DNA of 64,000 bases from Gammaproteobacteria bacterium. Its GTDB lineage: Bacteria > Pseudomonadota > Gammaproteobacteria > Chromatiales > Chromatiaceae. Position numbers and translations under genes: made by a program. The stretch's first letter is position 1; each line of letters begins with the position of its first letter. The stretch is taken from contig JAJFJN010000046.1 in NCBI GenBank assembly GCA_021773975.1, forward strand, positions 62,001 to 126,000, read 5' to 3'. Positions 7,838-31,665 of the stretch are shown here, piece by piece. Below the pieces are notes generated by a model. It worked only from the letters and a program-made list of their open reading frames with translations, was not told the origin of the DNA and did not search any database.

Positions 7838-7838
7838 A

Positions 7839-8873: not shown

Positions 8874-8876
8874 TAA

Positions 8877-10088: not shown

Positions 10089-10149
10089 ATTTTCTCCAAC
10101 ATATTTTAGTAAAAATTAAATAGCCGACCATAAATCATTATGACTACGC

Positions 10150-10938
10150 TCATAAGCGCACATTGACACCTGCTCGTTTTAACGCCTGCTTACCATGCCG
10201 GTCAGCCATCTCTTTGAAGTGCCAGAGATTCGCTGCAGCCACAGCTGATGCCCCAGCCCGGACACCATGGCTGTAAGCTTCAAAACTTCCAACTCCACCA
10301 AGCGCTATAATGGGAATAGATGTTACTCTCGAAACAGCTTCTATCAACTCCAGATCATATCCCATCCCTGAGCCATCTCTGTCAATACTTTGAAGGAGTA
10401 TCTCTCCTGCACCATACTCTTCCGCCCTTTTAGCCCAGACTTCTGGCGACATACCTGTAGCCGTATCCCCCCCATCAATAAACACCTCATAAGTTCCATC
10501 TTCATGTTTGCGCACATCAATATTTACGACAATCGCCTGGCTGCCAAATGAAGTGGATGCTTGCCTGATTAGCTCAGGTGTCCTGAAAGCCTGAGAGTTT
10601 ATCGATACCTTATCTGCCCCTCGGACAATTCGCGCTCGAATATCATCAAGTGTACGAATCCTACCGCCCCAGGTAAGCGGCATAAAACAGGTTTTACTAA
10701 CCGCCTCAAGTATCCCCAAAGCCCCCCCTAAATCTTTAATCTTGGCGTCATTCCTTCCAATGTCGTAATGATCTTCTCTGCTGATATCCAGATAGATCAG
10801 CTCATCCACATTCCAATGGTTAAAGCGCTCAACTTCATGAATGGGGTTGCCAATAATCTGATGAATGGAGAAGCTTTCACTTCGAACCAACAGACCATTT
10901 TTCAGTAGTAATACAGGGATAAGTCTTGTTTTTAACAT
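10150..10938 (-). CDS. HisF-like cyclase-family subunit of the acetamidino pathway (HisF2)
   Basis: TIM-barrel protein of the HisF/HisA family, 262 residues. Compared with histidine-biosynthetic HisF, the N-terminal catalytic aspartate of the IPCLDVKDG motif is replaced: here it reads LIPVLLLKNG, with Leu at position 11. Asp in VVNIDVRK is kept. Phosphate-binding glycines GGIR-like (LTWGGRIRTLDDI) and GGVGS are present. The substitution and position beside pseA/WbpG indicate the paralogue that feeds ammonia to a sugar amidotransferase rather than a histidine enzyme. It overlaps the hisH-like gene by seven bases. Confidence 0.83.
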   Translation of the reverse strand: MLKTRLIPVLLLKNGLLVRSESFSIHQIIGNPIHEVERFNHWNVDELIYLDISREDHYDIGRNDAKIKDLGGALGILEAVSKTCFMPLTWGGRIRTLDDIRARIVRGADKVSINSQAFRTPELIRQASTSFGSQAIVVNIDVRKHEDGTYEVFIDGGDTATGMSPEVWAKRAEEYGAGEILLQSIDRDGSGMGYDLELIEAVSRVTSIPIIALGGVGSFEAYSHGVRAGASAVAAANLWHFKEMADRHGKQALKRAGVNVRL

Positions 10939-11558
10939 TTCTCAATCATGCGAAACCAGTTTGTTAGTATTTTAAGGCCATCTTTTTGACTTTTTTCAGG
11001 ATGGTACTGTGTTGCCATAATATTCTTATACTCAACACTAGCCACAAATTCATCACCGTGGCAACAATATCCACTCACCACATCCTGATCTTCCGGTTTA
11101 AATACATAACTGTGCACAAAATAAAATGTAGGCGTGTGTGGCATTCCTTTATACAGACCTTGATCCTTTTTTACTTCCACATCATTCCATCCAATATGAG
11201 GAATCCGAATAGAGCCATCACCGGGATTCTTTAAGCGTTGCACTTCTCCAGGGATCCAGCCAAGGCCTTCATGCTTGCCATGTTCAGTGCTGTTGCTGGC
11301 TAATAACTGCATGCCCAGGCAAATGCCTAGCATAGGCTTTCCACCTTCCAACACATGCTCTCTCAGTGCATGATCAAAACCAAGTTTCCTAAGATTCTTC
11401 ATCCCATCGCCAAAGGCACCGACCCCTGGTAGCACAACAGCATCCACCTCTGATAAATCAGCAGGGCTACTTACAACCTCAAGTTCAGCTTTAACTGCTT
11501 TAAACCCATTTATAACAGACTGGATATTACCCATCCCATAATCAATCAATCCAATCAT
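10932..11558 (-). CDS. HisH-like glutamine amidotransferase subunit (HisH2)
   Basis: Class I glutaminase of 208 residues that releases ammonia from glutamine for its HisF-like partner. The nucleophile elbow GICLGMQ places the catalytic cysteine at residue 80, and the C-terminal MATQYHPEKSQ supplies the His/Glu of the triad. N-terminal IGLIDYGMGNIQSV is typical HisH. The overlap with the next gene supports a heterodimeric synthase. Because no other histidine genes are present and the downstream gene is PseA-like, I assign it to acetamidino-sugar synthesis. A stop codon of an open frame upstream overlaps its start (ATGA), but that frame is not recognisable as a gene. Confidence 0.85.
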   Translation of the reverse strand: MIGLIDYGMGNIQSVINGFKAVKAELEVVSSPADLSEVDAVVLPGVGAFGDGMKNLRKLGFDHALREHVLEGGKPMLGICLGMQLLASNSTEHGKHEGLGWIPGEVQRLKNPGDGSIRIPHIGWNDVEVKKDQGLYKGMPHTPTFYFVHSYVFKPEDQDVVSGYCCHGDEFVASVEYKNIMATQYHPEKSQKDGLKILTNWFRMIEKC

Positions 11559-12265: not shown

Positions 12266-13708
12266 GTGAAACCGATGCTCCCTACCCGTTACATCGAATT
12301 GATAGACAACATCTGGCAGCTCCAGCGGGTGCACAATAGTGATGATTTTGAATTCGCCGTCGACACAATCGTCGATTTTTGTGCTAATCACCTACCTGGC
12401 GAATCCAGGAAGCACTTGTTTACGCCAGGTGAAACCCACAACTATTGGATAGTGCCAAAAAGGTGGAATCTCAAAAGTTTTAGTCTGCACGATGCCGAGG
12501 GCAACTTGGTGGCTACCCACCACAGTCACCCGCTGGCTGTAGGCGCTTATTCCCAATCTATCAAGCAAGGGCTATCGCTTCAGGCACTCAAAGAAAAGAC
12601 TTTTTCCAGGCCGGACCTGCCAGAGGTTTACTCATTAGTGTTTGGGCGCATGTATCGTCATTGGGAGTCAGGATGGGATTTATCCCTCCCCGATAAAGTT
12701 GTAGATGCACTTCCGGCCGGCGAAGTTAGGATTAACATTGACGCCGAGTTCACTGATGCGCCCATGCCACTTTTTGAACTCGAGTGGACCGGCAAGTCCG
12801 AACAGACTGTTTTTATAGTAGCCCACCTGGATCATCCCGGTCAGGTCAATGATTCACTATCGGGCTGTATAGCCTCACTGCAGATCATTGAAAACCTGCA
12901 GCGTATCTTTTCTCACCCCCGGTTCACATATCGTGTGCTGCTGGTGCCGGAAATTATCGGCAGTGCACTCTACCTGGGTCGGTTTTCTGATCTTGCTCAA
13001 AAGGGGCTATTCTGCTTCTGCCCAAATATGACTAGCCACGACGCCCCATTGGCCATGTGTCAAAGCAAGTCTCAATCAAGTTATCTGGACTTGGCCCTGG
13101 AACTTGCGCTTAAAGAATCGGAACAGCCCTTTGTTCAGGGGCCGTTTCACCTCTACCCCGACTGTGGAGACGAGATCAGTTTTGACACGGTAGGCCTATC
13201 CATTCCAACACCGACACTTTCCAGAGTCGGCGAGCAGTATCCGGCCTATCACACCTCCGATGACAATCTCGATGCCTTCTTGTCCACACGGGCTCAGTCA
13301 CGCCACGCCGAGTTTGTAAAGATTGCCACTCGAGCGATGGCCATCATTGAACTCAATCAGGAGTTGCAGCCTCAGTTTGTGGGCATCCCCTGCTTGAGCC
13401 ACCCAGACCTGGATTTATACCTGAGCGGATCCAATTGCAATAATGTCCTGCTCAAAGATGGCTGTGTACTTGACCTGAATCATCACCCTATCGACCTGAG
13501 ACATTTCATGGAGTTCTTCCTGGATGCCCTGAACCAGCCTGGGGTTACCATCTTGGATATCGCCTACGCTGCCCAGCTGCCGTTCGGCTTTGTTGAGGAC
13601 TACGCCAAAGGTTTCATGGCAAAGCAGCTGGTAAGGGGCAAAGCCGCCTGGAACCGCATGGCTATTGGGCATGTATCCAGCGTTAATCTGCGACCGCCAC
13701 AGCTCTGA
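12266..13708 (+). CDS. DUF4910 domain protein, M28-like zinc aminopeptidase fold
   Basis: 480 residues of the DUF4910/aminopeptidase-like family frequently found in surface-polysaccharide and secondary-metabolite loci. A putative metal site is visible: AHLDHPGQVNDSLSG with His187 and Asp196, PEIIG with Glu229, an acidic CGDEISFD segment and YHTSDDN, all in the order expected for an M28-type fold. A C-terminal winged-helix-like part follows. Whether it is an active peptidase/amidohydrolase is not known. The start is taken as GTG 12266; ATG 12275 is an alternative and neither has a clear ribosome binding site. It begins 26 bases after the MITE-like element and converges on the acyltransferase operon. 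Confidence 0.75.
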   Translation: MKPMLPTRYIELIDNIWQLQRVHNSDDFEFAVDTIVDFCANHLPGESRKHLFTPGETHNYWIVPKRWNLKSFSLHDAEGNLVATHHSHPLAVGAYSQSIKQGLSLQALKEKTFSRPDLPEVYSLVFGRMYRHWESGWDLSLPDKVVDALPAGEVRINIDAEFTDAPMPLFELEWTGKSEQTVFIVAHLDHPGQVNDSLSGCIASLQIIENLQRIFSHPRFTYRVLLVPEIIGSALYLGRFSDLAQKGLFCFCPNMTSHDAPLAMCQSKSQSSYLDLALELALKESEQPFVQGPFHLYPDCGDEISFDTVGLSIPTPTLSRVGEQYPAYHTSDDNLDAFLSTRAQSRHAEFVKIATRAMAIIELNQELQPQFVGIPCLSHPDLDLYLSGSNCNNVLLKDGCVLDLNHHPIDLRHFMEFFLDALNQPGVTILDIAYAAQLPFGFVEDYAKGFMAKQLVRGKAAWNRMAIGHVSSVNLRPPQL

Positions 13709-13832: not shown

Positions 13833-14753
13833 TCACTCAAGATCAGCTTCATCGCTGCCGGGGTCTGCCGCGTTGTACAGATAAAAACCAGCCCAGTTTG
13901 TTGAATCCGGCTTTTCATTGGCGATGCCGTCACGACCGGCCGTACTACCATCAAACGGTATTTTTCCGGGCGTGAACAGGGGTGGCTCCTCCAGCAGATA
14001 GAAGGGGTCTTCACCAAGCCGGTCAGCGGCGGTATTGAAGGTTGTTACATAATCCACCGAATGCACCCACGCGTCCCCCAACCGGCTGCTTTTCACATGG
14101 TCTTCCTCGCGCAAATTGCGGACATGGCGGGCCAGATCATAGCGAATATCAAGGTCAAGGTGGCGGACAGTGGCGCTGAATGTTTTGTCCACCGGCTTGC
14201 CGTTAACAATCGGCATCCGCCTGATCAGTTTGTTGTAAACATAGGGTACGTCACACATGGCTTCCACCTGATGGGCCATACCCACCAGGTAGCCCGATGG
14301 CAAACCAATGGTCACCACCCGTGCGCCCCCCTTTAACATCCGGTCAAACGGTGAGTTCCAGCCGAAACTATTGGTCGAATTATTGGCGCATATATCGTTC
14401 TGCCTTGCCCCCTGTGCCGTTACTGAAAACATGGGGTGCAGGCTGCGCAAGGATTGCGGGCGAGTGCGCAGATATTCTGGCAGCAGCCCCATAAGGGTCG
14501 GCGTCTCCTCCCATACGAAGTCCATATCAAAACGCATGACCTGCGTTGTGTAGGCAGGCATGACAATCGTACCCTCGGGGCCGACGACATCGCAGATGGC
14601 ATCCAGATAGGCCGCACAGAAATCATCGCGGGTTTTGGTACCCGCCACAGCACCCACCTTAGCCAAATCTGCGTGTACCCAAACGGTTTGCCCAGACTCC
14701 ACGCCAACGTCTGTCAGCGCAATACGAATATCATCTTTTGTTATAATTTTCAT
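13833..14753 (-). CDS. AAC(3)-family (antibiotic_NAT) N-acyltransferase
   Basis: 306 residues of the aminoglycoside 3-N-acetyltransferase family. Recognisable blocks are VWVHADLAKVG near residue 25, IVMPAYT, LHPMFSVTAQG, FGWNSPFDRMLKGGARVVTIGL and GMAHQVEAMCDVPY. Chromosomal members in glycan loci are thought to acylate amino sugars rather than confer drug resistance, and none of the local genes suggests a resistance role. It is the last gene of an eight-gene minus-strand operon and lies 15 bases after an acyl carrier protein, so I infer that it takes an acyl or aminoacyl group from that carrier to an amino-sugar acceptor. That donor is unproven. Confidence 0.8.
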   Translation of the reverse strand: MKIITKDDIRIALTDVGVESGQTVWVHADLAKVGAVAGTKTRDDFCAAYLDAICDVVGPEGTIVMPAYTTQVMRFDMDFVWEETPTLMGLLPEYLRTRPQSLRSLHPMFSVTAQGARQNDICANNSTNSFGWNSPFDRMLKGGARVVTIGLPSGYLVGMAHQVEAMCDVPYVYNKLIRRMPIVNGKPVDKTFSATVRHLDLDIRYDLARHVRNLREEDHVKSSRLGDAWVHSVDYVTTFNTAADRLGEDPFYLLEEPPLFTPGKIPFDGSTAGRDGIANEKPDSTNWAGFYLYNAADPGSDEADLE

Positions 14754-14768
14754 CAGCGTAAAGCGGTC

Positions 14769-15005
14769 TCAGCAATCGACGCCGTTTTTTCTCAGCACCT
14801 CAAGAATGTCACCGACACATGAAAAACCGGCAATTTCATCCGTTGAAAACTCAATGCCAAAGGTTGATTCCAGCTTTATGACAAGATTGATGTGATTGAA
14901 TGAATCCCAATCCTTTACGTCTCTTGCCGTCAATTCGGGTGTGATGACCAGGTCATCACGGCCAAAGACCTCACGAAAGACATTCTGAACGCGTTCAATA
15001 CTCAT
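14769..15005 (-). CDS. Acyl carrier protein (dedicated, stand-alone)
   Basis: A 78-residue acidic helical protein with the 4'-phosphopantetheine attachment motif DSFNHINL, serine at residue 35, and the usual downstream helix (IEFSTDEIAGF). It is not the fatty-acid AcpP, which has a conserved DSLDTVEL-type motif and sits with fab genes; this copy is embedded between a methyltransferase and an AAC(3)-like acyltransferase. It is the natural carrier for a building block activated by the adenylation enzyme at 20971-22440 in the same operon (inference). It should be cytosolic and need a phosphopantetheinyl transferase encoded elsewhere. Confidence 0.9.
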   Translation of the reverse strand: MSIERVQNVFREVFGRDDLVITPELTARDVKDWDSFNHINLVIKLESTFGIEFSTDEIAGFSCVGDILEVLRKNGVDC

Positions 15006-15059
15006 TTATTCTTCCTCTTTTTCGCTATAAGTAGGTCACTATGGATGTGAAAGATTAAC

Positions 15060-15956
15060 CTATTCAACGATGAAGGTGGCCAGCCGAGGCACGGGATCAT
15101 TGCCCCGCTGTGCGTATGCAGCATTTTCACGCTCTTTTATGACGCGGAAACCCGCCGTTTCAAGGTGCTCTCTTACTTCACCCATCGTGTTGTAAACGTA
15201 TATGGCATCAATTTCCGCCGCCGTCATGGCAACGGATATAAACCCCTTGCCGCCGGGGGCCAGGATTTTACGCATGCCTTTTAGCAGGGCAACAGGGTCA
15301 TCCAGCAGGTGCAGGATCTGGACAGAGATGATAAACGGCCATTTTTCATCAGGGACATCAAAGGTGACATCCCGGTTTTCACCTTTCCATCGCCCGGAAA
15401 ATCCAAAATGCTCCATTTGTTGTCGGGCAAAGGCGAGGGCATGATCGCTGATATCGTAACCAGTACCGATAACGTCATCCGTGGTTGAAAGGGCTAACCG
15501 GCTATAAAAGCCCGCACCAACACCGATATCACAGAAACGGCGGTCGCTGCTTTCTGCGATAAGTTTCATGAACTCATCACGAAAATAGCAAAGATGCCCG
15601 TATTCATGCGGCCAAAGATAGTTTAGAAGCAACACACCGGGCAGGTAGGTCGAAAACATATAATCGGGGTTTTCAAAGACCTCTTTGGCAGTATCGCAAT
15701 GACTTTTGGAAAGATAATGTCCTTCTGCGGCGAAGCGTCTTTGCAGCTTTTCGGTTTCAAGCGAGAAGCGAATATACCCTACTGCTGCTTGCTCCAGCTT
15801 TTCAGTATCACCACCGGAAACGGCATCCAGTGTCTGCTCCAGGCCTTTTTCCCATGCATCGCCAAAACGTTCCCTCAGACGGCCAATGCTCGACGCCATG
15901 AAGGGTGCTTTTTTGGCGAAAATATCTTCAAATTTGATGACTGTTTTATAGGGCAC
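15060..15956 (-). CDS. SAM-dependent methyltransferase (first of two in the cluster)
   Basis: 298 residues. The N-terminal ~130 residues are helical with no recognised domain. The class I methyltransferase core starts with FCDIGVGAGFYSRLAL (about residues 140-156), followed by GTGYDISDHAL and the IISVQILHLLDDPVALLKGM and APGGKGFISV segments. The C terminus (HLETAGFRVIKERENAAYAQRG) matches methyltransferases that act on small molecules. It lies 54 bases upstream of the carrier protein gene. It may methylate the carrier-bound or sugar-linked building block; the substrate cannot be deduced. Confidence 0.75.
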   Translation of the reverse strand: MPYKTVIKFEDIFAKKAPFMASSIGRLRERFGDAWEKGLEQTLDAVSGGDTEKLEQAAVGYIRFSLETEKLQRRFAAEGHYLSKSHCDTAKEVFENPDYMFSTYLPGVLLLNYLWPHEYGHLCYFRDEFMKLIAESSDRRFCDIGVGAGFYSRLALSTTDDVIGTGYDISDHALAFARQQMEHFGFSGRWKGENRDVTFDVPDEKWPFIISVQILHLLDDPVALLKGMRKILAPGGKGFISVAMTAAEIDAIYVYNTMGEVREHLETAGFRVIKERENAAYAQRGNDPVPRLATFIVE

Positions 15957-15996
15957 GGATTTACTCGAATCACTATGGCCTGTTAGCAGGCTCTAT

Positions 15997-16746
15997 TTAA
16001 ATGGCTTTGAACACGTAGACAAAAACGCCGCCGACATCATCAGGAACATCCGGGCCAAGCTTGATCTTTTTGATCATTTCAAAGTTTCCGCCTAAAGTCA
16101 TCTCTTCTTCAAACATGGTTTCGTGCCTTTTGAAATCACCAATCATATGCAGACCGGATTTAAGGGCGTTAATTTCGATTTGCGCCAACTCAAAGTTTTC
16201 TTCGCGAAGCGCCTTGTTGACGATAAAGGTGTGATAGGCGTAAAGCGCCTCGGTGCGCTCATCCAGCGTATCGTAATAGGGTAAAACCTCACCACCCATA
16301 AGGTAGAGGCCGTTGGGCTTCAGGTTTTTATGGATGTTGGCGACAAATTTTTCGGCTGAATCGTAATGAATATGATCATGGGCAAAGACCGACACGACAA
16401 AATCAAACGCATTCGGTTCGCAATAGGTTGTAGCATCTGCACAAAGGGTTTCAACCCCATCCAGGTTTCGGCCATGAAGGATGTTCTTGCAGTTTTCATC
16501 CATGTCTATCGCGGTAATTTCAAGCTTTTCAAGCTTGGCAAAATCTTCCGTTGCCAGCCCTGTTCCCGCACCGATTTCAAGTATGCGCGCACCGCCCTTT
16601 CCCTCATACGCCTCGCTTATGTCCTTGACCAATTCCCCCACCATTTCGACGTAATAGGGGTGGGAACGCTCCACGGCATGATAAATGTCGAGATTGATGT
16701 ATCGCGACATTTCAAGGTTAGTGACATCATTCTTACCTGAGTTCAT
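15997..16746 (-). CDS. SAM-dependent methyltransferase (second of two in the cluster)
   Basis: 249 residues with a classical class I core: ILEIGAGTGLATEDF near residues 54-68, AIDMDENC, CADATTY, and NLKPNGLYLMGGEVLP. The early segment YHAVERSHPYYVEMV and the histidine-rich VFAHDHIHYD between motifs II and III are distinctive. It is not closely similar to the neighbouring methyltransferase, so the pair probably performs two different methylations rather than being a tandem duplication. It is separated from the neighbour by 40 bases within one operon. Confidence 0.75.
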   Translation of the reverse strand: MNSGKNDVTNLEMSRYINLDIYHAVERSHPYYVEMVGELVKDISEAYEGKGGARILEIGAGTGLATEDFAKLEKLEITAIDMDENCKNILHGRNLDGVETLCADATTYCEPNAFDFVVSVFAHDHIHYDSAEKFVANIHKNLKPNGLYLMGGEVLPYYDTLDERTEALYAYHTFIVNKALREENFELAQIEINALKSGLHMIGDFKRHETMFEEEMTLGGNFEMIKKIKLGPDVPDDVGGVFVYVFKAI

Positions 16747-16860
16747 TTTTACCTCTGATATCCAAAATCCAGCTTATGGGGGCCAAGTGATAGCGGGATG
16801 ACATAAGGCCATACCTGAGGCAGGATACGATAAATACCAGCTGCCAGCACGTGGCCAGCT

Positions 16861-17607
16861 CTAGGCACGCGGCTTGAATTCGTGTGCCTCAAAAGGCTGC
16901 CCAGCACCAAAGCAGCGGAACAGGCGTCCGCCCTCCAGGTCGATCACGGTGCTTGAAATGGTCTGGAAGTTATCCTTGCGCCAAATACGCTTGCGGTCGG
17001 CATCTGCCGATGGGGCGATCGTCTCAAACAGCCCCTCGCGATCCTTGATGGCATCGAGCTTCTCGACCGCATAGTCAAAACGGTTAAAACTGTTTGCATA
17101 TTCAGCTCTTTTTTTGGCACCCCATGAAAGATGGCGGAAATGATTGGTTACGATATACCGGCTATCAAGCGGGGTAATGTGAAGCTGATCATCATAGGCC
17201 TCCACGTGAACGGCTTTTGTGCGGTCGACCATCAACAGGTTGTAGCCACGCCATCGAATATCCGCATCCTTCAGGTGCTGTAGCCATTCATCGACTGATT
17301 TCACCTCCGGCAACAGGCGAGACAGCCACCAGGTCGGCCCTTCCTTACCCTCAGTTTCGGCAGCCATGATGGCCTTGGCATTTTCCACCTCACCACGCTC
17401 GATGGCTGCCGTCCATTCCGGTGAGTTTACCGCCGTGCTGACAAAGGCACAGCCATGCTTATTGATGCCAAGGCTGAAATAATCGGCACCCTTGGTGCGG
17501 ACGGCCAGAATGTCATCCGTTGCAACAACCTCTTCTGCTTCCATCATCTCTTTGTCACGGTTCTTGGAAAGCAGGTGTAAGTCATTCAAATAGAAAACTG
17601 TGCACAT
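16861..17607 (-). CDS. Putative Ntn-type hydrolase / acyltransferase (C45/TANGO2-like)
   Basis: A 248-residue protein starting MCTVFYL, so removal of Met would expose Cys2 as an N-terminal nucleophile. Further features of the Ntn cysteine hydrolases follow: KNRDKE at residues 15-20 (the Arg/Asp after the first strand pair), GINKHGCAFVSTAVN, and VTNHF around residue 155, comparable to the Asn-containing motif of choloylglycine hydrolase and penicillin acyltransferase families. It probably cleaves or transfers an amide/acyl bond. Within the cluster it might release or transacylate a carrier-bound product (inference). No signal peptide is present, so it is cytosolic. Confidence 0.6.
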   Translation of the reverse strand: MCTVFYLNDLHLLSKNRDKEMMEAEEVVATDDILAVRTKGADYFSLGINKHGCAFVSTAVNSPEWTAAIERGEVENAKAIMAAETEGKEGPTWWLSRLLPEVKSVDEWLQHLKDADIRWRGYNLLMVDRTKAVHVEAYDDQLHITPLDSRYIVTNHFRHLSWGAKKRAEYANSFNRFDYAVEKLDAIKDREGLFETIAPSADADRKRIWRKDNFQTISSTVIDLEGGRLFRCFGAGQPFEAHEFKPRA

Positions 17608-17645
17608 GGTGTTCGTGTTCCTTGGGGTGTTTTTATAAAATACAG

Positions 17646-18869
17646 TTAACGGATGCGATCTATTAGCTCTTCTGACAAATCCAAATCTTCAACTTCGTTC
17701 AATTGCTTGTCTATTTTTGGAAGCAGATAGCAGAACTCAAGGTAAGGAGAGATATCCCCCCGATAGCGCAACAGGCTCAGCCGATCAAGGTCAAGCAGGA
17801 TTTCAGCATCCCGCTCCACAAGCACGCCAAAAAATACAAACGGAATGAAGCGGCGGGCATGTTCGGAATAGAGCGAACTCTTCATGATTTTCTGGGCAAT
17901 CAGGCTGCAACGATAGACATAGAGCCATTTGAAGGCATCGCAACTTCCGCTTGAACCCAAAAGGGTCAGACCAGGCAGGGTGGGTGCCATATCCTTGCCA
18001 AAATACCCCGCAACCTGATGATAGGTGTAGGGGGTATCCGTATCATAAATGCTGAGCATGAGACTGCGCGGTGATATGCGTCCACTGGTTTTTTCTCGAA
18101 TCAGGCGCGTGACCCGTTGTGACATAATGGCGGCAATCTCGTTGCACTTCACAGGGCCGAGCATGAGTCGCCCCTGATATTTCTCGATTTTCGGCTTGCT
18201 GATATCGGCCAGCACCAGGCTTTTCTCGAAATCAGTCTGGGTAATGTCCACATCCTTGAAGCAGTTGATCTTGTTGCGGCATGCCTCAAAATACGCTTTG
18301 CGGATCGATTGCGGATACGAGGTTATTTCATGGGGGTCAACCAGCGTCCCATTCACTTCAAACACCACCGAATCTGCCGGCGCAGTAAGATCGAAGGCCT
18401 GCGAGATCATTTTTGACCCCAGCACAACACCGAAATATAGCCCCTCGGCAACCCACTTATCAACGCTTTCCAAATTGGCGGAGATGACATCCTTTTCATA
18501 CCTGTCGTGGCGATCGATGTAGGCATGGACCAGTGCATCTTCCAGTTCTTCAACGCCGTTGAGAGTAAGGGGGGTCTCAACCTCGTAAGGGATGGTCAGC
18601 GACGAAACAGACGTGCCCTGAAACAACGACTCCCCATCAGGCTCGCCATACCAGGCTTTTATCTCCTCGGTTCGCACCCATTGCTCGAAAGTGCGGTTAT
18701 ACAGGCTGCGCTTTTCAGGGCTGGCACTTTCAAACAACGCCTGCCCTTTGCGCACACCCGCTTTAAAACGCGCATACCACTCCTGCTGCAGCGGTGTTTC
18801 AGCCACATTCAACTGGCCGAGGTAGGATGATAATTTCATTCTATTTCTCATAATGTTTGAGCGTGCCAT
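17646..18869 (-). CDS. Unrecognised 407-residue protein of the biosynthetic cluster
   Basis: I do not recognise this protein. It is soluble, without signal peptide or membrane helix, mixed alpha/beta in composition. Segments that look conserved rather than random are SVVFEVNGTLVDPHEITSYP near residue 165, KYQGRLMLGPVKCNEIAAIM near 230, and LTLLGSSGSCDAFKWLYVYR near 310; the GSSGSCDA stretch could be a nucleophile or anion-binding loop. It is placed 38 bases before the Ntn hydrolase and 125 bases after the radical SAM gene, clearly inside the operon. In-frame ATGs at 18851 and 18839 are alternative starts; none has a clear ribosome binding site. Confidence 0.6.
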   Translation of the reverse strand: MARSNIMRNRMKLSSYLGQLNVAETPLQQEWYARFKAGVRKGQALFESASPEKRSLYNRTFEQWVRTEEIKAWYGEPDGESLFQGTSVSSLTIPYEVETPLTLNGVEELEDALVHAYIDRHDRYEKDVISANLESVDKWVAEGLYFGVVLGSKMISQAFDLTAPADSVVFEVNGTLVDPHEITSYPQSIRKAYFEACRNKINCFKDVDITQTDFEKSLVLADISKPKIEKYQGRLMLGPVKCNEIAAIMSQRVTRLIREKTSGRISPRSLMLSIYDTDTPYTYHQVAGYFGKDMAPTLPGLTLLGSSGSCDAFKWLYVYRCSLIAQKIMKSSLYSEHARRFIPFVFFGVLVERDAEILLDLDRLSLLRYRGDISPYLEFCYLLPKIDKQLNEVEDLDLSEELIDRIR

Positions 18870-18994
18870 GCCACGATAGGGCGACTAAATCGCCCCGTCT
18901 TAGCCTGCGTGGAGGTCGGCCCGGTTCTCAATCAGAAGGCTCTTATAGGATTATGCCAGCACACAGATTTGACTGAAGCGCGCTATTTAGCCGC

Positions 18995-20824
18995 CTAAAC
19001 CTGTTCGATCCGGCGTTTTTCGTAGGTCTTACGCTGCATGAAGGCCTGTGCCAACAGCTTCATATCCTCTTTGGTTCGGTAATGTTCGCGGCGCAGGGGT
19101 TCAGGCAGGGCGGCGGGATCAATGTCCCGACGGTCCTTGAAGTTTTCCGCGTAACGCTCTGTATTTGTCAGCATATCGCGAATATTCTCTTCGCCATAGC
19201 GTTCGACAAAGGTGCGACCCCAGTCGTTGCCGAACCAGTCACACAGCATGCCCCGAACCTGGTCGGGGAACAGGGTGACAAAGCCGATATCCGGGCGGGA
19301 GCGGATGATAGCCGACATCATTTTGTGTCCAGCCAAAACCATCTCTTCTTTCCAGTTCTCACCATTGACCTGGTAGGGCAAACGCACCTGAAAATCCTTC
19401 GCGGGAACGCAATCCAGGCCGTAAATGTTATCCTGCTCAAAGCTTCTTTCCATGGGTGCACCACGGGTAAGGTCAAAGGTGGCCAGGGTGATCGTGTGAA
19501 TGTGCGGGTTCTCGATAATATAGTTGGCAAGGCTTTCCCGCTGCTTATCCGTTTCACCGGGGAAACCGATCAGAACAAAGCAGAAGTTCATAATACCGGC
19601 TTCGCCCGCTTTCGAAAGGACTTCATCGGTAAACGACACGGAGGTCTTCTTGTTCATATCCTTGAGAATATCCGGATCATTGGTTTCAAGGCCCCAGTGA
19701 ATCTTGCGACAGCCACCGCGGTAAAGCTGCTCAAGGAAACCCTCCTTGGCAAAGGCCTTTTCAAGCCTCGCGAACGTTTCCCATTTGATATCCAACCCGC
19801 GCGCTTCAATTTCCTCGGAAATCTCCATCAAAAGACTGGGGGCCGATGTGTCTTCCATAAACTTGAAATATTTGGCTTCACGTCCGTAGTTGTTGCGAAC
19901 GTACTCCTGAATCTTGACCAGATCTTCAACAACACGAGCACCGGGACGCACTCGGTAGCTATTGGAGCCATAGGGGATGGCGCAAAAGGCACAGTTGGCA
20001 TAGCAACCGCGGGTCGTCTGGAATGGAATGAGGTATTCCGGAAGCAGGTAGGCATCAAGATCAAAGCCACGAAAATCAGCATCGGGGATCTCCGCGCCAT
20101 TAAGCGCAGCGCCCTTACGATCAACGGCCTGGTTCGGTCCTTTGCCACAGACAACGACATTGGTCAGGTCAACATCCTCACCATTGAGGATCTGCTTGTG
20201 CAGGTTGATGAAGGGTATCTCACCATCCCAGAGCACCAGATAATCAGCCAGTGCCGAGATGTCATCGTGGGCAAGAATGGAGTCATAACAGCGCGTGATC
20301 ATTTGGCCACCAAAGATGATGGTCGCATCGGGCATTTCCCGCCGCACCACCGAAGCCAGCGTGTAAGCCGGGATAAGCTGATCCTGGAAGGTGATGGCAA
20401 TTCCGACAATTTTGGCTCCCGTGCCCACCATTTCATCACGAACCAGCTGTTCATAGAATTCGATAAATGGGTTTGATTCCCTGTCTGTTGTCGCTTCAAG
20501 AACCGTTTTGCAAAACAGGCGCTCGTGCTTCATTGCAAGCGAGCGCAGCCCGACCTCAAGTTGCGGCCAATCTTTTGATCGCTCCCACAGGCGCGCCTCG
20601 ATGTCATTATAATAAGAGAGCAGTAAAAGGGGTTTCTTTTTAAACTCAGCGGCACCAAGGCGCGGAACATCCGGGCCAAGAAAATGATGCAAAAACTTGA
20701 TATTGCTATCCATGATGGTAGTGGAAAACCCCTCCCTTTCCAGCGCACCTTTCAAAAGCGGCAGGTTCAGCTGCGCGTGTAGTGGGCTTGAAACGGGGGT
20801 GTTTATTATTATGCTGTCTATCAT
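18995..20824 (-). CDS. Radical SAM enzyme with N-terminal cobalamin-binding-type domain
   Basis: 609 residues. The N-terminal half has the layout of the B12-binding domain of 'B12-binding radical SAM' proteins (IIINTPVSSP..., VVRREMPDATIIFGGQM), though no DxHxxG motif is seen, so base-off cobalamin binding is assumed from the family. The [4Fe-4S] site TRGCYANCAFC has Cys274, Cys278 and Cys281, followed by the glycine-rich and FxHWGLETNDPDIL segments of the SAM barrel and a ~200-residue C-terminal part. Such enzymes methylate unactivated carbon or phosphorus, or rearrange carbon skeletons. Its position between the adenylation enzyme and methyltransferases points to tailoring of a carrier-bound acid or a sugar. 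The substrate is unknown. Confidence 0.85.
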   Translation of the reverse strand: MIDSIIINTPVSSPLHAQLNLPLLKGALEREGFSTTIMDSNIKFLHHFLGPDVPRLGAAEFKKKPLLLLSYYNDIEARLWERSKDWPQLEVGLRSLAMKHERLFCKTVLEATTDRESNPFIEFYEQLVRDEMVGTGAKIVGIAITFQDQLIPAYTLASVVRREMPDATIIFGGQMITRCYDSILAHDDISALADYLVLWDGEIPFINLHKQILNGEDVDLTNVVVCGKGPNQAVDRKGAALNGAEIPDADFRGFDLDAYLLPEYLIPFQTTRGCYANCAFCAIPYGSNSYRVRPGARVVEDLVKIQEYVRNNYGREAKYFKFMEDTSAPSLLMEISEEIEARGLDIKWETFARLEKAFAKEGFLEQLYRGGCRKIHWGLETNDPDILKDMNKKTSVSFTDEVLSKAGEAGIMNFCFVLIGFPGETDKQRESLANYIIENPHIHTITLATFDLTRGAPMERSFEQDNIYGLDCVPAKDFQVRLPYQVNGENWKEEMVLAGHKMMSAIIRSRPDIGFVTLFPDQVRGMLCDWFGNDWGRTFVERYGEENIRDMLTNTERYAENFKDRRDIDPAALPEPLRREHYRTKEDMKLLAQAFMQRKTYEKRRIEQV

Positions 20825-20970
20825 TTATGCACCTATATAGCTGATACCCTAGATTGCCAATCACCAAAACTTCAGGGGGACGGAGAGCAACCTCATGATG
20901 TTAGTATAGGTAGCCAGGGAGTTCATTTCATAAGGTTTTTTCCAGCCGGCAAAGGTTGCCCTTGCCTTTG

Positions 20971-22440
20971 TCAAATCTTATCCGTCACCAAGCTGCGAAC
21001 CTGTTTGCGGTCGATCTTACCGTTCTGGTTAACCGGAAACGAGTCCCTGGTCAGGAAAACATCCGGAACCATGTATTCCGGTACATCTTGGGACATCTGT
21101 TTTTTGATCGATTCGACATCGAATTCCCGTCCCGGCTCCTCGCTGACCACGGCCACCAGAATCTGTCTGGAATTTTTCTCAGTAACAAAACAGATGGCTT
21201 CTCGCACATTGAGGGCATGCTTTACATTCACCTCCACATCCATCAATTCGACACGATAACCGTGCAGCTTAATTTGCGTATCCATGCGACCTTTACAGAA
21301 CCAGACATCCTCAAACTTTTCAACGATGTCACCGGTCAGAAAGTAACGCGCCCCTTCCTGTTCGTAAAACCGGTCAGTACCAACACCCGCCAAATACCCG
21401 GGCGTAAGCTGGCATCCACTTAACACCAGTTCGTTATTTTCTCCAATGTCCGCCACGTTTCCAGGGAGCGTTTTACCGATAGGAACAAAACCAAATGGTG
21501 CAAACCTTTCCAGGTCACCATCAACGCAGTGATGATAAAAGTTTTCAACCCCGGTCTCGGTAAGGCCGTAGAAGTTATAAACGTTCTCGATATTCAGGTT
21601 CCTCCAGCAATAATCCAGAACCCCAAGCGGGAAAGGCTCCCCACACAGAAACATGATACGAATGGGGGATTGCGTAATCATATCGGGTCGCAGGCTTATT
21701 ATCCTGTTGATAACAGATGGAACCGATGACCAGACCGTGACCTCATTTTTCTCAATAAAATTGAGTGGAAAAAAACGGTCGGCATCCTTGATAAGGGGTG
21801 ATATTGCCCCCCCCACAAGGGGAAAGCAGAAAAGATAAAAGACGGAAATATCAAACGCAAAATCATGGGCATCTGAAAACACATCTCCCTTTTTAAACGG
21901 AAGGATAGCCAGGCAGTTATTGACAAAATTAATATAATTGTCATGGGTCATTGGAACGCCCTTAGGCGTTCCAGTAGACCCGGAAGTAAACATTATGTAG
22001 GCGATATCACTTCCATCAAAGTCCGGCAGGGTGATTTCCCGTGGGCTTTGTGCATCACAAAGGGAAGCGAGTGAGACGATTTTAATATTTTGCTCATCAG
22101 CATACGCAGCAATTGCTTCCGGGATATCCGTATCTGCAAAAATGACCTTGGGCGACGTCATTTTCACGATGTCTAAATTGCGGTTCGGTGCCAGAGTCGG
22201 CGACATGGGTACCCAGGTATTTCCCGACAGCAAAATCCCAAAAATCGCCCCATATGATTCGAAGGATTTTGAGCTGAAGACAATTACTTTTTCCCTCGAC
22301 TCTTTCTCCAGATAACCATAGGTTTTTTGCACAACATTATTCATGTCCGCATAGGTGAAGGTCGTGTCAAAATGCCTGAATGCAACAGCATTGCCAGCGC
22401 TCAGGGAATCAAGAAGTTTTTGGTAGAATTGTTGAGGCAT
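20971..22440 (-). CDS. Stand-alone amino acid adenylation enzyme (DltA/NRPS A-domain-like)
   Basis: 489 residues of the ANL superfamily. The phosphate-binding A3 motif FTSGSTGTPKG lies at about residues 151-161, VWSSVPSVI and FYGLTETG follow, then YFLTGDIV (A7), GRMDTQIKLHGYRVEL (A8) and the catalytic lysine in VNQNGKIDRK (A10). No fused carrier or condensation domain is present, so it must load a separate carrier, most simply the acyl carrier protein at 14769-15005 in the same operon. The overall pattern resembles D-alanine:carrier ligases, hence an amino acid substrate is likely but not proven. It is the first gene of the eight-gene operon. Confidence 0.88.
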   Translation of the reverse strand: MPQQFYQKLLDSLSAGNAVAFRHFDTTFTYADMNNVVQKTYGYLEKESREKVIVFSSKSFESYGAIFGILLSGNTWVPMSPTLAPNRNLDIVKMTSPKVIFADTDIPEAIAAYADEQNIKIVSLASLCDAQSPREITLPDFDGSDIAYIMFTSGSTGTPKGVPMTHDNYINFVNNCLAILPFKKGDVFSDAHDFAFDISVFYLFCFPLVGGAISPLIKDADRFFPLNFIEKNEVTVWSSVPSVINRIISLRPDMITQSPIRIMFLCGEPFPLGVLDYCWRNLNIENVYNFYGLTETGVENFYHHCVDGDLERFAPFGFVPIGKTLPGNVADIGENNELVLSGCQLTPGYLAGVGTDRFYEQEGARYFLTGDIVEKFEDVWFCKGRMDTQIKLHGYRVELMDVEVNVKHALNVREAICFVTEKNSRQILVAVVSEEPGREFDVESIKKQMSQDVPEYMVPDVFLTRDSFPVNQNGKIDRKQVRSLVTDKI

Positions 22441-22730: not shown

Positions 22731-25700
22731 ATGACTACCCACTCACAAACAGGTCAATCAAACCTCAGCAATATCGCTACTGAAGAATTTGTAACTAATG
22801 ATTTTGGTGACACCTACCTTTATTCGTTAAGCGGCGATACATTTAATCGCTTTGGTGCTGACACCGCCTTCCTTGAAACTTTTGCTGATGATATTTTCCG
22901 TGAAAATTATCTCTATTTTTTCATAGGATCTGATTCTGGTTTGCTGCCTGCTTATATTGAACGAAAGGGCATTCCTAAAGGTAGCCGCTATATCTTTATA
23001 GAACCATCTCAAATACTGGATAAAATCTCATCAAAAGGAATCGAATGGGACAAAAAAATTACCTTTTCAACACCTGAGAATGCAATTCAAACAGCTGAAA
23101 AACAAGGTAGCCTCGGCGCTCTATATTATGCAATATCATCAAAATTAGTAACCTTTTCATCACTTGCCTGTCACAACGAAGCAAACAGTTTTTATATTGA
23201 AATAAAAGCAGACATAAGCGACCAGTTAAATACTTACTGGCGTGCTGCGCATACTGTTCACACAGCGGCCGATGGCAAGCTGCACGTCCAAGCCGCATTC
23301 ATTAATAGTGTTGACACAATCCGTAACGCAACTTTTCTTAAAGAGCTAGCACCTTTTACCGCAGGCAAAACAGCGGTCATTCTTGCTGGCGGCCCATCCC
23401 TTGATCTATTTATTGACTGGGTAAAAGAGAATAAAAAGCATGTACTGTTAATTGCTGTTTCCAGAGTAACGGAAAAACTGCACAAAAATGGCATTACACC
23501 CGATATAGTTGTAGCTTGTGATCCGCAGAATGTAAGCCTGGTTATTGGCAAAGGGTTATTCTTGGATTACACACCGCTTTTTGCCGTCACCAATGCAACA
23601 GCGCCCGACCTTGTAGGGCAATGGCCAGGCAAGATGGCTACAGTTGGGACAAAGCTCCCATATCCTTCAAAAATCAACTGTTATGACAATATTAATCCCT
23701 GCCCGCCTACAGTCACACATATAGCCACCAACATAGCAGCCGAAATGGGTGTGGCACAAATTGTTTTGCTAGGTGCGGATTTCTGTTATTCAGAAAAAGG
23801 GGATACTCACGCATCAGGCTCCGGAATTGGGGCGGTTGAAGCCCCTCTCACCGTCAAAAGCGACATCGTCGAAGTGACAACTTATGAAGGGCGCATAGCA
23901 CAAACAGATCAGGAGCTGCTTGAAGCAAAAAACTACCTTGAAAAACAAGCAAAAGAATATATTAAAAAAGGGATCAAGCTAGTAAATCCAGCGCCTAATT
24001 CGGCAGCCGTACCAAACATAGAATTCCACCCGCTTAAAAGCATTATCATTCAACCATTAACTTGCTCAATAATTGCAGAAATCGAAAGGTTATATCCTGA
24101 AGTAAATAAAGCAAAGTATCTTCATGAGCTAAAAAATGAGCTCATTGAGCTAAATGGAAGAATAGATAGTATCAAGCAACTCGCTACAACAGGCATAGAG
24201 ACTATTGATGCACACTGTGACTCAGAGGGAGGGCAATATCGCCAGTTATTGGCTTTAATAAAAGGCATGAAAAACAGGATTAGCTCCGACACAATATCCT
24301 TTTTGCTGAATATATATGGCAAATTTGAACTCGCAGAGATATCCACCTGTTTGGAGAGCGGCGAATCATCACGTAACATCACTCTTGAAAGTCACCGAAT
24401 GTTTTTTTGCACCTATTTAAACATCTGCGATGAAATACAGGAAATAATTGCCGATTCGTTGCAGCGATTAGAATCTCGCCTAGAAGAGACGAAGTCAAAT
24501 CCAGATATTCCAGCACTTGTAGCGCAGTGGTACAAAGACAAACAGCCCGGCAGAGCCCACGTATTGAAAACCCAGAACCCTGATCTGGTAAATAATATTT
24601 CAACTAAAGACAAGCAACTGTTAAACGAACTTGAGGCAGAATTTTTACGCACCCTCCCACACATTAAAGAAGAGGATCAGCAAGGTATTGACAGCGCATT
24701 ATCGCTTGACAGTTCAATAGATAAGATCAATTTGTACTATAACACGCACAATATAAACAGGCTCATATACCTTAACAACACAATAGAAAAGATTCCAGAC
24801 AAAAACAGCGCGCTTTACTGTCTATTGATACAAGGGATAATTCATGAGCTAAATCTTGACTACGATAAAGCCCTATACTGTTTCTCGAAAATCACTAACG
24901 CCGATCTAACCCCTGTGATTTCATTAGCACTTGAGCATACAGTAACTATTAACATGAACAATAATGATCATCAAAGTGCCATATTAGCCATGGAGAAGCT
25001 AGCGCAGATATCATGCCAGTATCAACCACACTTGGCTCAAATGCTTGATTCTATAGGGCACACAAAAGATGCTCTTGAAACACTAGAGAAGCATCTCTTA
25101 ATTAAGCCTCAAAATATTCCCACCCTAATCAAGGTTGCCTACCTAAGATTTGAGACAAATGATATTTCAGGGGCTAAACAGGCATGCCACAAGGCTCTTG
25201 AGTTGAATCCAGATCTCAACCAGATACATTTACTTTTGTCAAAAATTGACGTCTTACTGGGTAAGAATACGACTTCTTCAGAGCAACCAAACAACCACGC
25301 GCAAGTCACACATGCCATCAACCAACAGGACAAGATTATAAATCGACGGTGGCCTGCAGTATGGAAGCAACTATTGGCTTGCAATAACGGAAGCGAGCCT
25401 ATGGTTACTGGTGACACCCCAGAACCCACGCAGATTTTTAACGGAATTCACATTTCCAGCGCATTCGACTCATTGAAAGAGGCACAATGCCAGGCATCTG
25501 TCATTCCTGATGATGCAACCACCGCCTGGGTATATGGAGCCGGTAGCGGAAAATTAATTGAAACGCTCATAACCAGAAAAACGTTAAGTAAAGTTAATGT
25601 CGTAATCATGAATCAGTTACTTTTTTATCAATCGCTTAATATTTACCCGCACCATTGGTTGGATGATCATAAGGTACACCTTACTATAGGCAATAATCTA

Positions 25701-26588
25701 CATGATCTTAAACACCCTTTTGCATGCATTCCTCCAAGCGTGAGACTGGCAGATCAAACGGCCTGGCGACTCCGTGATCAGATTCAAGCAGAGCTGACTA
25801 ACAGAGTTCAATGTCTAGAGCATGCTTCGATGCAGAAGAAACATGACATCCCCAATATCCAGATGAATGTCGACTACGCAAAATCTGATCCGGATGTAGC
25901 TACGCTATTTGACTCTCTACCTGGATCCACGATCAATGTGATTGCAGGCGGGCCGACAAGCATCGATAGCTTTGCCAGACTGCAGAAAAACAAGGGATAT
26001 ATCATCGCAGTAAGTACTGCATTAACGCCCTTGCTGGAAGCCAATATAACACCCGACTTAACAATAGCTATTGATTCTCAGCCAGAACTCGTTGGTCACC
26101 TACCAAATAATCTATCCCAATGTACAAAATCAGCACTGGTTTACACACCCGCGATTAATCGGGAGATGATCTCACGCTGGCCAGGACCACGCTATGTGTT
26201 CTATCATGATTTTCCATTTTTTGATGAGATTCGGCGTATAGCCCCCAAGGCCTCACTGTATACCTCTGGCACAGTCACACATGACGCCGTTGATCTTGCA
26301 GTTAAAATGGGAGCTACTCGCATTAACCTTATCGGCTGTGATTTTGGCTATCCCGGCAATCTGAGCCATGCCATTGGAAGTCGCTATGCCACTGAAATAA
26401 AAACATCCCCAGTAGAATCAACAAATATTGAGAATGGCTATGGAAAGCCTATACAATCAATGCAGTCACTGATTTTCTGTCTCCGAGCATTAGAAGAGTA
26501 CATTGCTTTTAATCCATCAGTGACTTTTATCAATTGCAGTCGCAAAGGTGCCAAAATTACTGGCTGCTTGTATAGTGATGACTCATGA
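22731..26588 (+). CDS. maf: Motility-associated (Maf/DUF115) flagellin glycosyltransferase, bimodular with TPR linker
   Basis: Maf proteins transfer CMP-nonulosonic acids to Ser/Thr of flagellin in the cytoplasm. The 1285-residue product has a Maf N-terminal domain, a DUF115 core with ILAGGPSLD at residues 217-225 and PDIVVACDPQ, a helical domain, then TPR-like repeats (~680-870; for example LDYDKALYCFSKI and ALETLEKHLLIKPQNIP), and a second DUF115 core with AGGPTSIDS near residue 1073, DLTIAIDSQPE and LIGCDFGYPG. The usual Maf has one core and 600-700 residues. The two cores may have different donors or one may be regulatory. The gene is about 35% G+C by eye, below its neighbours, and its TGA overlaps the next ATG. 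Confidence 0.88.
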   Translation: MTTHSQTGQSNLSNIATEEFVTNDFGDTYLYSLSGDTFNRFGADTAFLETFADDIFRENYLYFFIGSDSGLLPAYIERKGIPKGSRYIFIEPSQILDKISSKGIEWDKKITFSTPENAIQTAEKQGSLGALYYAISSKLVTFSSLACHNEANSFYIEIKADISDQLNTYWRAAHTVHTAADGKLHVQAAFINSVDTIRNATFLKELAPFTAGKTAVILAGGPSLDLFIDWVKENKKHVLLIAVSRVTEKLHKNGITPDIVVACDPQNVSLVIGKGLFLDYTPLFAVTNATAPDLVGQWPGKMATVGTKLPYPSKINCYDNINPCPPTVTHIATNIAAEMGVAQIVLLGADFCYSEKGDTHASGSGIGAVEAPLTVKSDIVEVTTYEGRIAQTDQELLEAKNYLEKQAKEYIKKGIKLVNPAPNSAAVPNIEFHPLKSIIIQPLTCSIIAEIERLYPEVNKAKYLHELKNELIELNGRIDSIKQLATTGIETIDAHCDSEGGQYRQLLALIKGMKNRISSDTISFLLNIYGKFELAEISTCLESGESSRNITLESHRMFFCTYLNICDEIQEIIADSLQRLESRLEETKSNPDIPALVAQWYKDKQPGRAHVLKTQNPDLVNNISTKDKQLLNELEAEFLRTLPHIKEEDQQGIDSALSLDSSIDKINLYYNTHNINRLIYLNNTIEKIPDKNSALYCLLIQGIIHELNLDYDKALYCFSKITNADLTPVISLALEHTVTINMNNNDHQSAILAMEKLAQISCQYQPHLAQMLDSIGHTKDALETLEKHLLIKPQNIPTLIKVAYLRFETNDISGAKQACHKALELNPDLNQIHLLLSKIDVLLGKNTTSSEQPNNHAQVTHAINQQDKIINRRWPAVWKQLLACNNGSEPMVTGDTPEPTQIFNGIHISSAFDSLKEAQCQASVIPDDATTAWVYGAGSGKLIETLITRKTLSKVNVVIMNQLLFYQSLNIYPHHWLDDHKVHLTIGNNLHDLKHPFACIPPSVRLADQTAWRLRDQIQAELTNRVQCLEHASMQKKHDIPNIQMNVDYAKSDPDVATLFDSLPGSTINVIAGGPTSIDSFARLQKNKGYIIAVSTALTPLLEANITPDLTIAIDSQPELVGHLPNNLSQCTKSALVYTPAINREMISRWPGPRYVFYHDFPFFDEIRRIAPKASLYTSGTVTHDAVDLAVKMGATRINLIGCDFGYPGNLSHAIGSRYATEIKTSPVESTNIENGYGKPIQSMQSLIFCLRALEEYIAFNPSVTFINCSRKGAKITGCLYSDDS

Positions 26589-26866: not shown

Positions 26867-27026
26867 ATTTCCAACAAAAACTCACTCTATCAACTATTGT
26901 GGAACTAAATTAAGCACGAGCTGACTGAATGAGACCAAGGAAATCTAAGCACAAAAGAAACGAAAAAACATAGATTCTTAGTTGCTTGTAAAAAAACCAC
27001 TCTAAAACATAGTAGATTTGATCAAA

Positions 27027-27605
27027 ATGAATTATTCAGCAATTATAGTCCTTGGAAATGAGATGAATAAGGAAGGAGAACTTAATACTGAATCGTCTTC
27101 TCGCATGAATCTTGCGATAGCTGCCTTTAATAATCTTGAGGCCCCTTATATTGTTACATGTGGCTGGGCATACAGAAACGATACATTTATTACTCTAGCA
27201 GATGCAATGAAGACGTATGCAATCAAAAGCCATGGAATACCATCTGATTCAATTGTTACTGAAACGACATCAAGGGACACAGTTGGTGATGCCGTTTTCA
27301 GTAAAAAAAACATCCTATTAAATAGAGGATGGAAGAAGTTAATGGTGATAACGAGCGATTATCATGTATCACGAGTCCATGAAATATTCACCTATGTATA
27401 TGGCATACAATACACAATTAAAGTTAGAGGTGTAGCAACTGATAGAAAGGAATCTCAATCAAATAAAGAAACAATGTCTACCCATGCATTCCATGAAACT
27501 TTTTTAGGAATTGACGCTGGAAATGATATATCAATATATAAACGCCTTTGTGAAAAACATCCTTATTATAATGGCCTTATTCATCCAAAAATATCAGATA
27601 GCTGA
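27027..27605 (+). CDS. DUF218 / YdcF-ElyC-SanA family protein
   Basis: The fold family is recognised from AIIVLGNEM at the N terminus (the usual VVLG start), SRMNLAIAAF, the TTSRDTVGDAVFSK block, and VITSDYHVSRVHEIF with the conserved SxxHxxR pattern. Family members with a membrane anchor act in envelope maintenance; this one lacks a signal peptide and is cytosolic, 193 residues. Function is unknown. ATG 27027 is used as start; a TTG at 27018 is in frame. The gene is extremely A+T-rich (about a third G+C), like its neighbour, pointing to recent acquisition. Confidence 0.7.
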   Translation: MNYSAIIVLGNEMNKEGELNTESSSRMNLAIAAFNNLEAPYIVTCGWAYRNDTFITLADAMKTYAIKSHGIPSDSIVTETTSRDTVGDAVFSKKNILLNRGWKKLMVITSDYHVSRVHEIFTYVYGIQYTIKVRGVATDRKESQSNKETMSTHAFHETFLGIDAGNDISIYKRLCEKHPYYNGLIHPKISDS

Positions 27606-27686
27606 AGCAGTTCACATTGTCTATGCGCCAAAATCTACTTGGGATGGCATTTACAATGGCTGGCAGCCAAAACAAAAAATCAATCC

Positions 27687-28301: not shown

Positions 28302-28391
28302 TTTGAAAAATCCAATTAAAAACATAAGAAATACAAATTCTATATGCAGATGATTTAATCTGCATCCACACTAAAGGTAAGAGACAGCAAA

Positions 28392-30655: not shown

Positions 30656-31665
<1,010 letters not shown>

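Follow-up and report, generated by a model that had tools for sequence, protein, structure and literature searches.

A rare eight-gene operon in a flagellin-glycosylation island: a candidate cassette for N-acyl exchange on a flagellin nonulosonic acid

What is made by an operon that pairs an amino-acid adenylation enzyme and a carrier protein with a radical S-adenosylmethionine (SAM) enzyme, two methyltransferases and an AAC(3)-like acyltransferase, and on which molecule does the product end up? The question is raised by eight genes in a stretch of contig JAJFJN010000046.1 (assembly GCA_021773975.1, a gammaproteobacterium of the Chromatiaceae). The whole stretch of 64,000 nt is referred to here as the window, all coordinates are window positions unless a locus is named, and G000 denotes the window's own genome. 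On balance, we consider it probable that the eight genes, together with an adjacent DUF4910 gene, form a cassette for N-acyl exchange on a flagellin nonulosonic acid (NulO).

The operon and its counterpart in a second genome

The eight open reading frames (ORFs) are all found on the minus strand and encode, in order, the adenylation enzyme (A), the radical SAM enzyme, a 407-residue orphan (U407), an enzyme of the N-terminal nucleophile type (Ntn), two methyltransferases (MT1 and MT2), the acyl carrier protein (ACP) and the AAC(3)-like protein (Table 1). In the ORF listing of the window, the successive intergenic gaps are 146, 125, 38, 114, 40, 54 and 15 bases. This gene order, with gaps of 15-146 bases, had been described in the original prediction and was recovered in full; the intact catalytic signatures that it claimed (the A10 lysine, the carrier Ser35, CxxxCxxC and the Ntn Cys2) are all present by motif check, and its family guesses for the eight genes match the Pfam and NCBIfam results. 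The NCBIfam matches agree with the Pfam families, most of them lying below curated cut-offs. Promoter and terminator scans returned no more hits in the window than in shuffled sequences.

The occurrence of the operon was examined in 92 genomes of relatives, 369 of the class and 398 of the phylum (overlapping draws), as well as in 48 genomes of the class of G450, the second genome found to carry the core. U407 had two clear matches among the 398 phylum genomes, in G000 and in G450 (E ~1e-263), and at E <= 1e-40 the radical SAM protein was found in the same two. Among the 92 relatives and among the 369 class genomes U407 was found in its own genome alone, in five same-genus genomes it was absent, and in the 48 genomes of the other class it was seen only in G450. 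Nine further U407 matches among the phylum genomes (E 0.014-0.067) covered short pieces and were taken as chance. In G450, which belongs to a different class, five proteins are conserved with identities of 53% (A), 64% (radical SAM), 67% (U407), 59% (Ntn) and 63% (MT1). The gene order there is MT1, radical SAM, U407, Ntn and A, followed by a PP-binding carrier and another methyltransferase; the succession radical SAM-U407-Ntn is common to both genomes. Since five of the eight genes are also found side by side in a genome of another class, with identities of 53-67%, their association is more than chance; co-occurrence elsewhere, on which the original prediction had staked its case, was thus found for a five-gene core.

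An AAC(3)-like gene is also present in G450, 0.4 kb from the end of the operon and convergent on it; the distance to a Maf gene is 7 kb. One PF02522 match was found in G000 and two in G450, and the rough chance of finding one within 1 kb is 0.004; for a Maf gene within 9 kb it is ~0.011. The biosynthetic core has therefore stayed together, while the carrier, the second methyltransferase and the transferase are of matching kind and loosely conserved. The G450 operon is preceded by a NodB-type deacetylase gene, which might replace DUF4910 in that genome.

Further searches gave a consistent picture of a genuine and rare gene set, the core of which was found in two genomes. Scans of genome contigs and of viral contigs yielded no U407 relative; each relied on two short peptide patterns, by which relatives may be missed, and the rarity rests partly on these two patterns per genome-contig scan. 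In plasmids, neither U407 (at E 0.01) nor Ntn (at E 0.001) had a relative, and radical SAM matches there were below 30% identity among the matches listed (20 of 29). Phages gave no match at E 1e-10. Distant radical SAM matches in the family, of 26-28% identity, lay in short loci with no matches to other operon genes.

Several of the enzymes could be characterized further from their sequences. A gave NCBIfam matches to TIGR01733 (E 2.7e-64) and to DltA models (~1e-70), all below cut-off, and its A10 motif, NGK at 473, is intact. Its solved relatives, by PDB sequence matches, include carrier ligases for D-alanine and for proline as well as 4oxi, which we take to be AlmE. By-eye alignment with 4oxi and the prolyl-carrier ligase, at the GrsA code positions, gives the pocket D-I-F-S-F-C-F-V-E-K, with Ala for Ser in G450. 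The Phe and Cys positions are shared with 4oxi; the ninth-position Glu is absent from both 4oxi and the prolyl-carrier ligase. Apart from this Glu, the pocket resembles those of ligases for small amino acids. The specificity prediction from the pocket that had been advised thus yields no single substrate. The radical SAM enzyme carries CYANCAFC at 274, a CxxxCxxC motif, and its nearest NCBIfam models are the ribosomally synthesized and post-translationally modified peptide (RiPP) C-methyltransferase rSAM_ocin_1 and the PhpK family, both far below cut-off; it is a candidate cobalamin-dependent C-methyltransferase. SAM-binding motifs are present in both MT1 and MT2. For Ntn, no PDB sequence match was better than E 0.59. 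The AAC(3)-like protein, which carries HQVE at 161, is the sole PF02522 match found in G000.

Pfam, PHROGs and the PDB sequences contained nothing that matched U407, and its sole NCBIfam match was at chance level (E 0.013). An AlphaFold model, built from a two-row alignment, was unreliable (mean predicted local distance difference test score 48, predicted template modelling score 0.43), and Foldseek returned nothing for it at E <= 0.001; for these two reasons no fold is claimed. A resemblance to the indoleamine-dioxygenase group, considered because of a motif, found no support.

Table 1. Operon genes and neighbouring features in the window
Feature	Positions	Strand	Basis
A, free-standing amino-acid adenylation enzyme, DltA/AlmE/prolyl-ligase-like	20971..22440	-	Pfam AMP-binding 1.3e-47
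Radical SAM enzyme with weak B12-binding match	18995..20824	-	Radical_SAM 2.4e-19
U407, orphan	17646..18869	-	67% identity to sole clear homologue found
Ntn-type amidase/acyltransferase (AAT/C45-like)	16861..17607	-	Pfam AAT 3.7e-10; Cys2 and TNH motif
MT1, class I SAM methyltransferase	15997..16746	-	Pfam; 63% identity in G450
MT2, class I SAM methyltransferase	15060..15956	-	Pfam; no detectable match to G450's second methyltransferase
ACP, acyl/aminoacyl carrier protein, Ser35	14769..15005	-	Pfam PP-binding 1.1e-05
AAC(3)-like N-acyltransferase (PF02522)	13833..14753	-	Antibiotic_NAT 1.5e-32; DUF4910/NulO-linked branch
DUF4910/DUF2172/M28-like aminopeptidase-type protein	12266..13708	+	convergent with operon; DUF4910 E 2.3e-26
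Maf-type flagellin glycosyltransferase, two MptE-like (PF01973) domains	22731..26588	+	context
Left NulO genes: cytidylyltransferase, pseudaminic-acid-associated methylase, methyltransferase, WbuX amidotransferase, HisF-like, HisH-like (last two names from sequence reading, no family call)	6510..11558	.	context
Right NulO genes: DUF218, formyltransferase, NeuB/PseI-like, PseC-like, PseB-like	27018..31518	.	context

Association of the AAC(3)-like enzyme with DUF4910 and pseudaminic acid genes

The operon sits in a flagellin-glycosylation island that comprises flagellins, a Maf gene, pseudaminic acid (Pse)/NulO genes, an amidotransferase and FliB. To its left are found FliS, FliD, FlaG, two flagellins, a cytidylyltransferase, the TIGR03587 Pse-associated methylase and the WbuX amidotransferase; to its right are Maf, a formyltransferase, NeuB, PseC-like and PseB-like proteins, the flagellin lysine methylase FliB and FlgK. 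Roughly 125 bases separate the DUF4910 gene from the AAC(3)-like gene.

The neighbourhood of AAC(3)-like genes was surveyed in the 398 phylum genomes, where PF02522 had 60 matches in 46 of the 398. The loci reached up to 9 kb on each side where the contig allowed and comprised those of 30 matches, which were the top scorers with one exception, and of 28 others, the two operon copies being left out. A DUF4910 gene was found near the PF02522 gene in 10 of the 28 lower-ranked loci and in 0 of the 30 top-ranked (Fisher p 2.5e-4), and an AMP-forming ligase in 9 of 28 against 0 of 30 (p 6e-4); both p values serve as guides, the groups having been split post hoc and kin counted apart. In a 62-row tree of AAC(3)-like proteins, those of the window and of the G450 operon fell within a 23-row branch (support 96/88) which holds all 14 DUF4910-linked rows, as compared to 0 of the other 39; when the window and four hand-chosen plasmid rows are set aside, the counts are 10/18 and 0/39. 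On a Tritonibacter mobilis plasmid the order is pseB, pseC, DUF4910, AAC(3), FlmD, pseI and pseF; on one of Agrobacterium salinitolerans, pseB, C, F, G, H and I are followed by AAC(3), a transposase gene and DUF4910; and a Maritalea plasmid carries pseB, a long AAC(3)-containing protein annotated HAD-IIIC, DUF4910 and a NeuB-type synthase. Because the window protein shares its branch with the DUF4910-linked AAC(3)s, and because such pairs recur in pseudaminic-acid loci, the DUF4910 gene probably belongs to the cassette.

In locus L096 (1948-4443), a gene beside DUF4910 encodes a fusion of the AAC(3) and FkbH_N domains; FkbH proteins load glyceryl groups on carriers. Long AAC(3) ORFs also occur in L099, L101 and L137, and in L099 and L137 Pfam detects the AAC(3) domain alone. 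In L079 (4152-9699), genes whose nearest models are an exosortase-A ligase, a pyridoxal-phosphate (PLP) decarboxylase and the KedN5 B12-radical SAM C-methyltransferase (below cut-off) stand in a row with genes for a carrier protein and an AAC(3)-like protein, which we regard as a similar partnership, independent of that in the operon. In L077 (114-2609), the second AAC(3)-like gene of G450 lies directly 3' of a ligase gene nearest the exosortase-A ligase model. In the tree, the AAC(3)-like proteins of L077, L079 and L084 lie on a branch distinct from that of the operon proteins. Ten of the 30 top-ranked loci (L116-L119, L121, L124, L127, L128, L130 and L132), all from genomes of G450's class, also have a carrier match at ~0.4-2.3 kb from their AAC(3)-like gene.

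Within the island, GC content at third codon positions is 0.47-0.61 in the operon and DUF4910 genes, higher than in fliD, flgK, the 40828-42237 gene and maf (0.38-0.39); this difference does no more than suggest that the operon and the DUF4910 gene were acquired from elsewhere. A NeuB match was present in four of five same-genus genomes, where the flanks (14-20 kb) differ in gene content, and no operon gene was found in these flanks. The Maf protein is a 1285-residue chain in which the two MptE-like domains, accompanied by weak TPR matches, perhaps reflect a tandem duplication. The flagellin lysine N-methylase FliB (31816-33132) scores 187 bits against a cut-off of 85.

A proposed N-acyl exchange cassette and its closest precedents

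From gene presence, motifs, the core in two genomes, the island location and the AAC(3)-DUF4910-Pse association, all of which are observed, we infer the reactions of the cassette and their substrate, order and target as follows. A would activate a small amino acid and load it on the arm at Ser35 of the carrier, where the bound group would be remodelled by the radical SAM enzyme, by one or both class I methyltransferases and by U407. Ntn would cut or form an amide during maturation, either in removal of a protecting group or in release of wrong products. DUF4910 would hydrolyse an N-acetyl group of a pseudaminic-type sugar, the AAC(3)-like enzyme would acylate the freed amine with the completed group taken from the carrier, and Maf would attach the decorated sugar to flagellin.

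A more far-reaching version of this scheme is put forward tentatively, as one that we would sooner expect to fail than to hold: a carrier-bound amino acid, C-methylated by a B12-radical SAM enzyme and changed by U407, which would be an enzyme without known relatives, would be put on pseudaminic acid by an enzyme of the AAC(3) fold that uses ACP in place of acetyl-CoA, and constitute a new class of flagellin glycan decoration. In the same version, the AAC(3)-fold enzyme and DUF4910 would form a general unit for N-acyl exchange on sugars with an interchangeable donor branch, FkbH supplying glycerate and A supplying amino acids.

The closest precedent is found in Campylobacter jejuni; we take Cj1295 to be a DUF4910-type protein and Cj1296/7, an N-acetyltransferase, to be AAC(3)-like. 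Hitchen et al. (PMC3068675) report that the aminopeptidase-like Cj1295 is required for 5-(2,3-di-O-methylglyceroyl)-pseudaminic acid on flagellin, and propose that it removes the C5 acetyl group to allow substitution. The two systems share a flagellin island, Pse genes, an aminopeptidase-like protein, the proposed C5 N-acetyl removal and a methylated acyl group. They differ in that the C. jejuni group is a glyceric acid ether and not an amino acid, that no radical SAM, U407 or Ntn counterpart is named in the available text, and that the transferase is unidentified there; here, the donor branch consists of A and a carrier. The DUF4910-AAC(3) association fits the Cj1295 proposal and would add a candidate transferase to it.

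Two other systems resemble parts of the scheme. The peptidylamido-glycan of Clostridium difficile type B flagellin (PMC5207245) likewise has amino acids amide-linked to an amino sugar, a putative acyltransferase and a D-alanine ligase, but the sugar is Fuc3N bearing taurine-Ala-Gly, and no carrier-bound remodelling is reported in the portion of the paper available. CysS of the cystobactamid pathway (PMC7966384) performs a B12-radical SAM methylation within an adenylation/carrier pathway, although on an aromatic alkoxy substrate in a nonribosomal peptide synthetase line. For the radical SAM enzyme, U407 and Ntn we found no counterpart described in the flagellar nonulosonic N-acyl setting. In a search of open-licence papers, no title or abstract start among the matches listed describes this gene combination, and the available portions of PMC4875605, PMC13130089, PMC3765264 and PMC13317340 hold no closer case.

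A number of observations weigh against the proposed cassette. Its core was found in two genomes only. The B12-binding match of the radical SAM enzyme (1.4e-05, 25.3 bits) falls below the Pfam cut-off of 32.1. In the pseB-like gene (30655-31640, minus strand), an in-frame stop close to codon 41 makes the listed ORF start late; the gene is the only close copy in G000, the other match being 34% identical, and the sugar pathway may thus be off. The window row in the AAC(3)-like tree is a long branch, and its position inside the 23-row group is unsure. The ligases near AAC(3) genes are nearest to fatty-acid ligase models in L103 and to the exosortase-A ligase model in L077 and L079, so the ligase-AAC(3) pairing is not all amino-acid based; several such family names rest on matches below cut-off. 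In G450, the ACP and second methyltransferase are unrelated by BLAST to their window counterparts, the AAC(3)-like proteins share 26% identity across half of their length, a DUF4910 gene was not found near the operon, and none of the three NeuB genes is on its contig; the combined DUF4910 and Pse/NulO feature set is therefore not reproduced around the G450 operon. Lastly, in Table 1 of PMC3068675 neither variant has Cj1296/7 in frame, an observation unfavourable to an AAC(3) role in that strain.

Weighing these points, the attachment of the product to a flagellin sugar is, as judged from sequence, the best supported reading. The original prediction had proposed acylation of a flagellin amino sugar; the acyl transfer is supported by the G450 core and by the AAC(3) branch near DUF4910/NulO genes, and an amino-acid group, probably methylated, is its putative cargo. 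It had not named Cj1295, and had delimited the eight genes correctly while leaving out the DUF4910 neighbour, whose membership the comparison suggests.

Other explanations and significance

One possible, though unlikely, alternative is that the operon serves to make a distinct, diffusible small molecule, such as a modified amino-acid amide, and that its flagellar location is incidental. Adenylation enzymes, carriers, B12-radical SAM enzymes, methyltransferases and hydrolases are typical of natural-product clusters, and the location of the G450 NeuB genes on other contigs would suit this explanation as well. In the vicenistatin starter-unit pathway (VinL/VinM/VinJ; PMC11284099), an adenylation enzyme, a carrier and an amidohydrolase act on a carrier-bound amino acid, the two enzymes serving as a protecting-group pair; that system, however, feeds a polyketide synthase, and neither an AAC(3)-like enzyme nor a radical SAM enzyme is named in the available text. 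A diffusible product is harder to reconcile with the lack of a transporter or regulator gene within the operon, with the Maf gene near it in both genomes and with the tie between its AAC(3)-like branch and DUF4910 and NulO genes.

Transfer of the carrier-bound group to another surface polymer (lipid A, O-antigen or exopolysaccharide), as in AlmEFG, Dlt and exosortase-A ligase clusters, appears less likely still. It would be consistent with the presence of 4oxi and DltA among the solved relatives of A, and with the row of genes in L079. To our knowledge, AlmEFG has no remodelling enzymes, and AlmG is not AAC(3)-like. In Vibrio cholerae, AlmEFG (PMC12930378) resembles the present case in its free adenylation enzyme, whose pocket is related to that of A through the Phe and Cys positions (4oxi, by eye), in its separate carrier and in a transferase by which an amino acid, glycine, is delivered to a surface glycolipid; it differs in its target, an acyl chain of lipid A. 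The window locus, in contrast, lies between flagellin and Maf/NulO genes, and its AAC(3)-like protein is in a different tree branch from those of L077, L079 and L084.

It is also improbable, to a degree slightly beyond the preceding case, that the locus is decaying or silent, the interrupted pseB leaving no pseudaminic-type sugar and the operon no target. The stop described above is the observation in its favour. The operon motifs, on the other hand, are intact, DUF4910, Maf, NeuB and the PseC-like protein are encoded by long open frames, and, the assembly being a draft, the lone stop may be either a sequencing mistake or of recent origin. That the AAC(3)-like gene merely follows the operon as an aminoglycoside-resistance enzyme, as its PF02522 match and its AAC(3) matches in PDB might imply, is hardly credible given that its product falls well short of each of the five AAC(3) cut-offs listed in NCBIfam (at best 86.4 bits against a cut-off of 270) and groups apart from the highest-scoring PF02522 proteins in the tree, and that 15 bases separate the gene from that of the carrier.

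If N-acyl exchange on a flagellin nonulosonic acid is indeed the task of these genes, then bacteria diversify flagellin sugars with amino-acid groups built on carrier proteins, and a likely job could be given to genes now labelled AAC(3) family acetyltransferases and to DUF4910 proteins. It would also point to an uncharacterised enzyme family, U407, and the deacylation proposed for Cj1295 in 2010 would become testable in a second setting.

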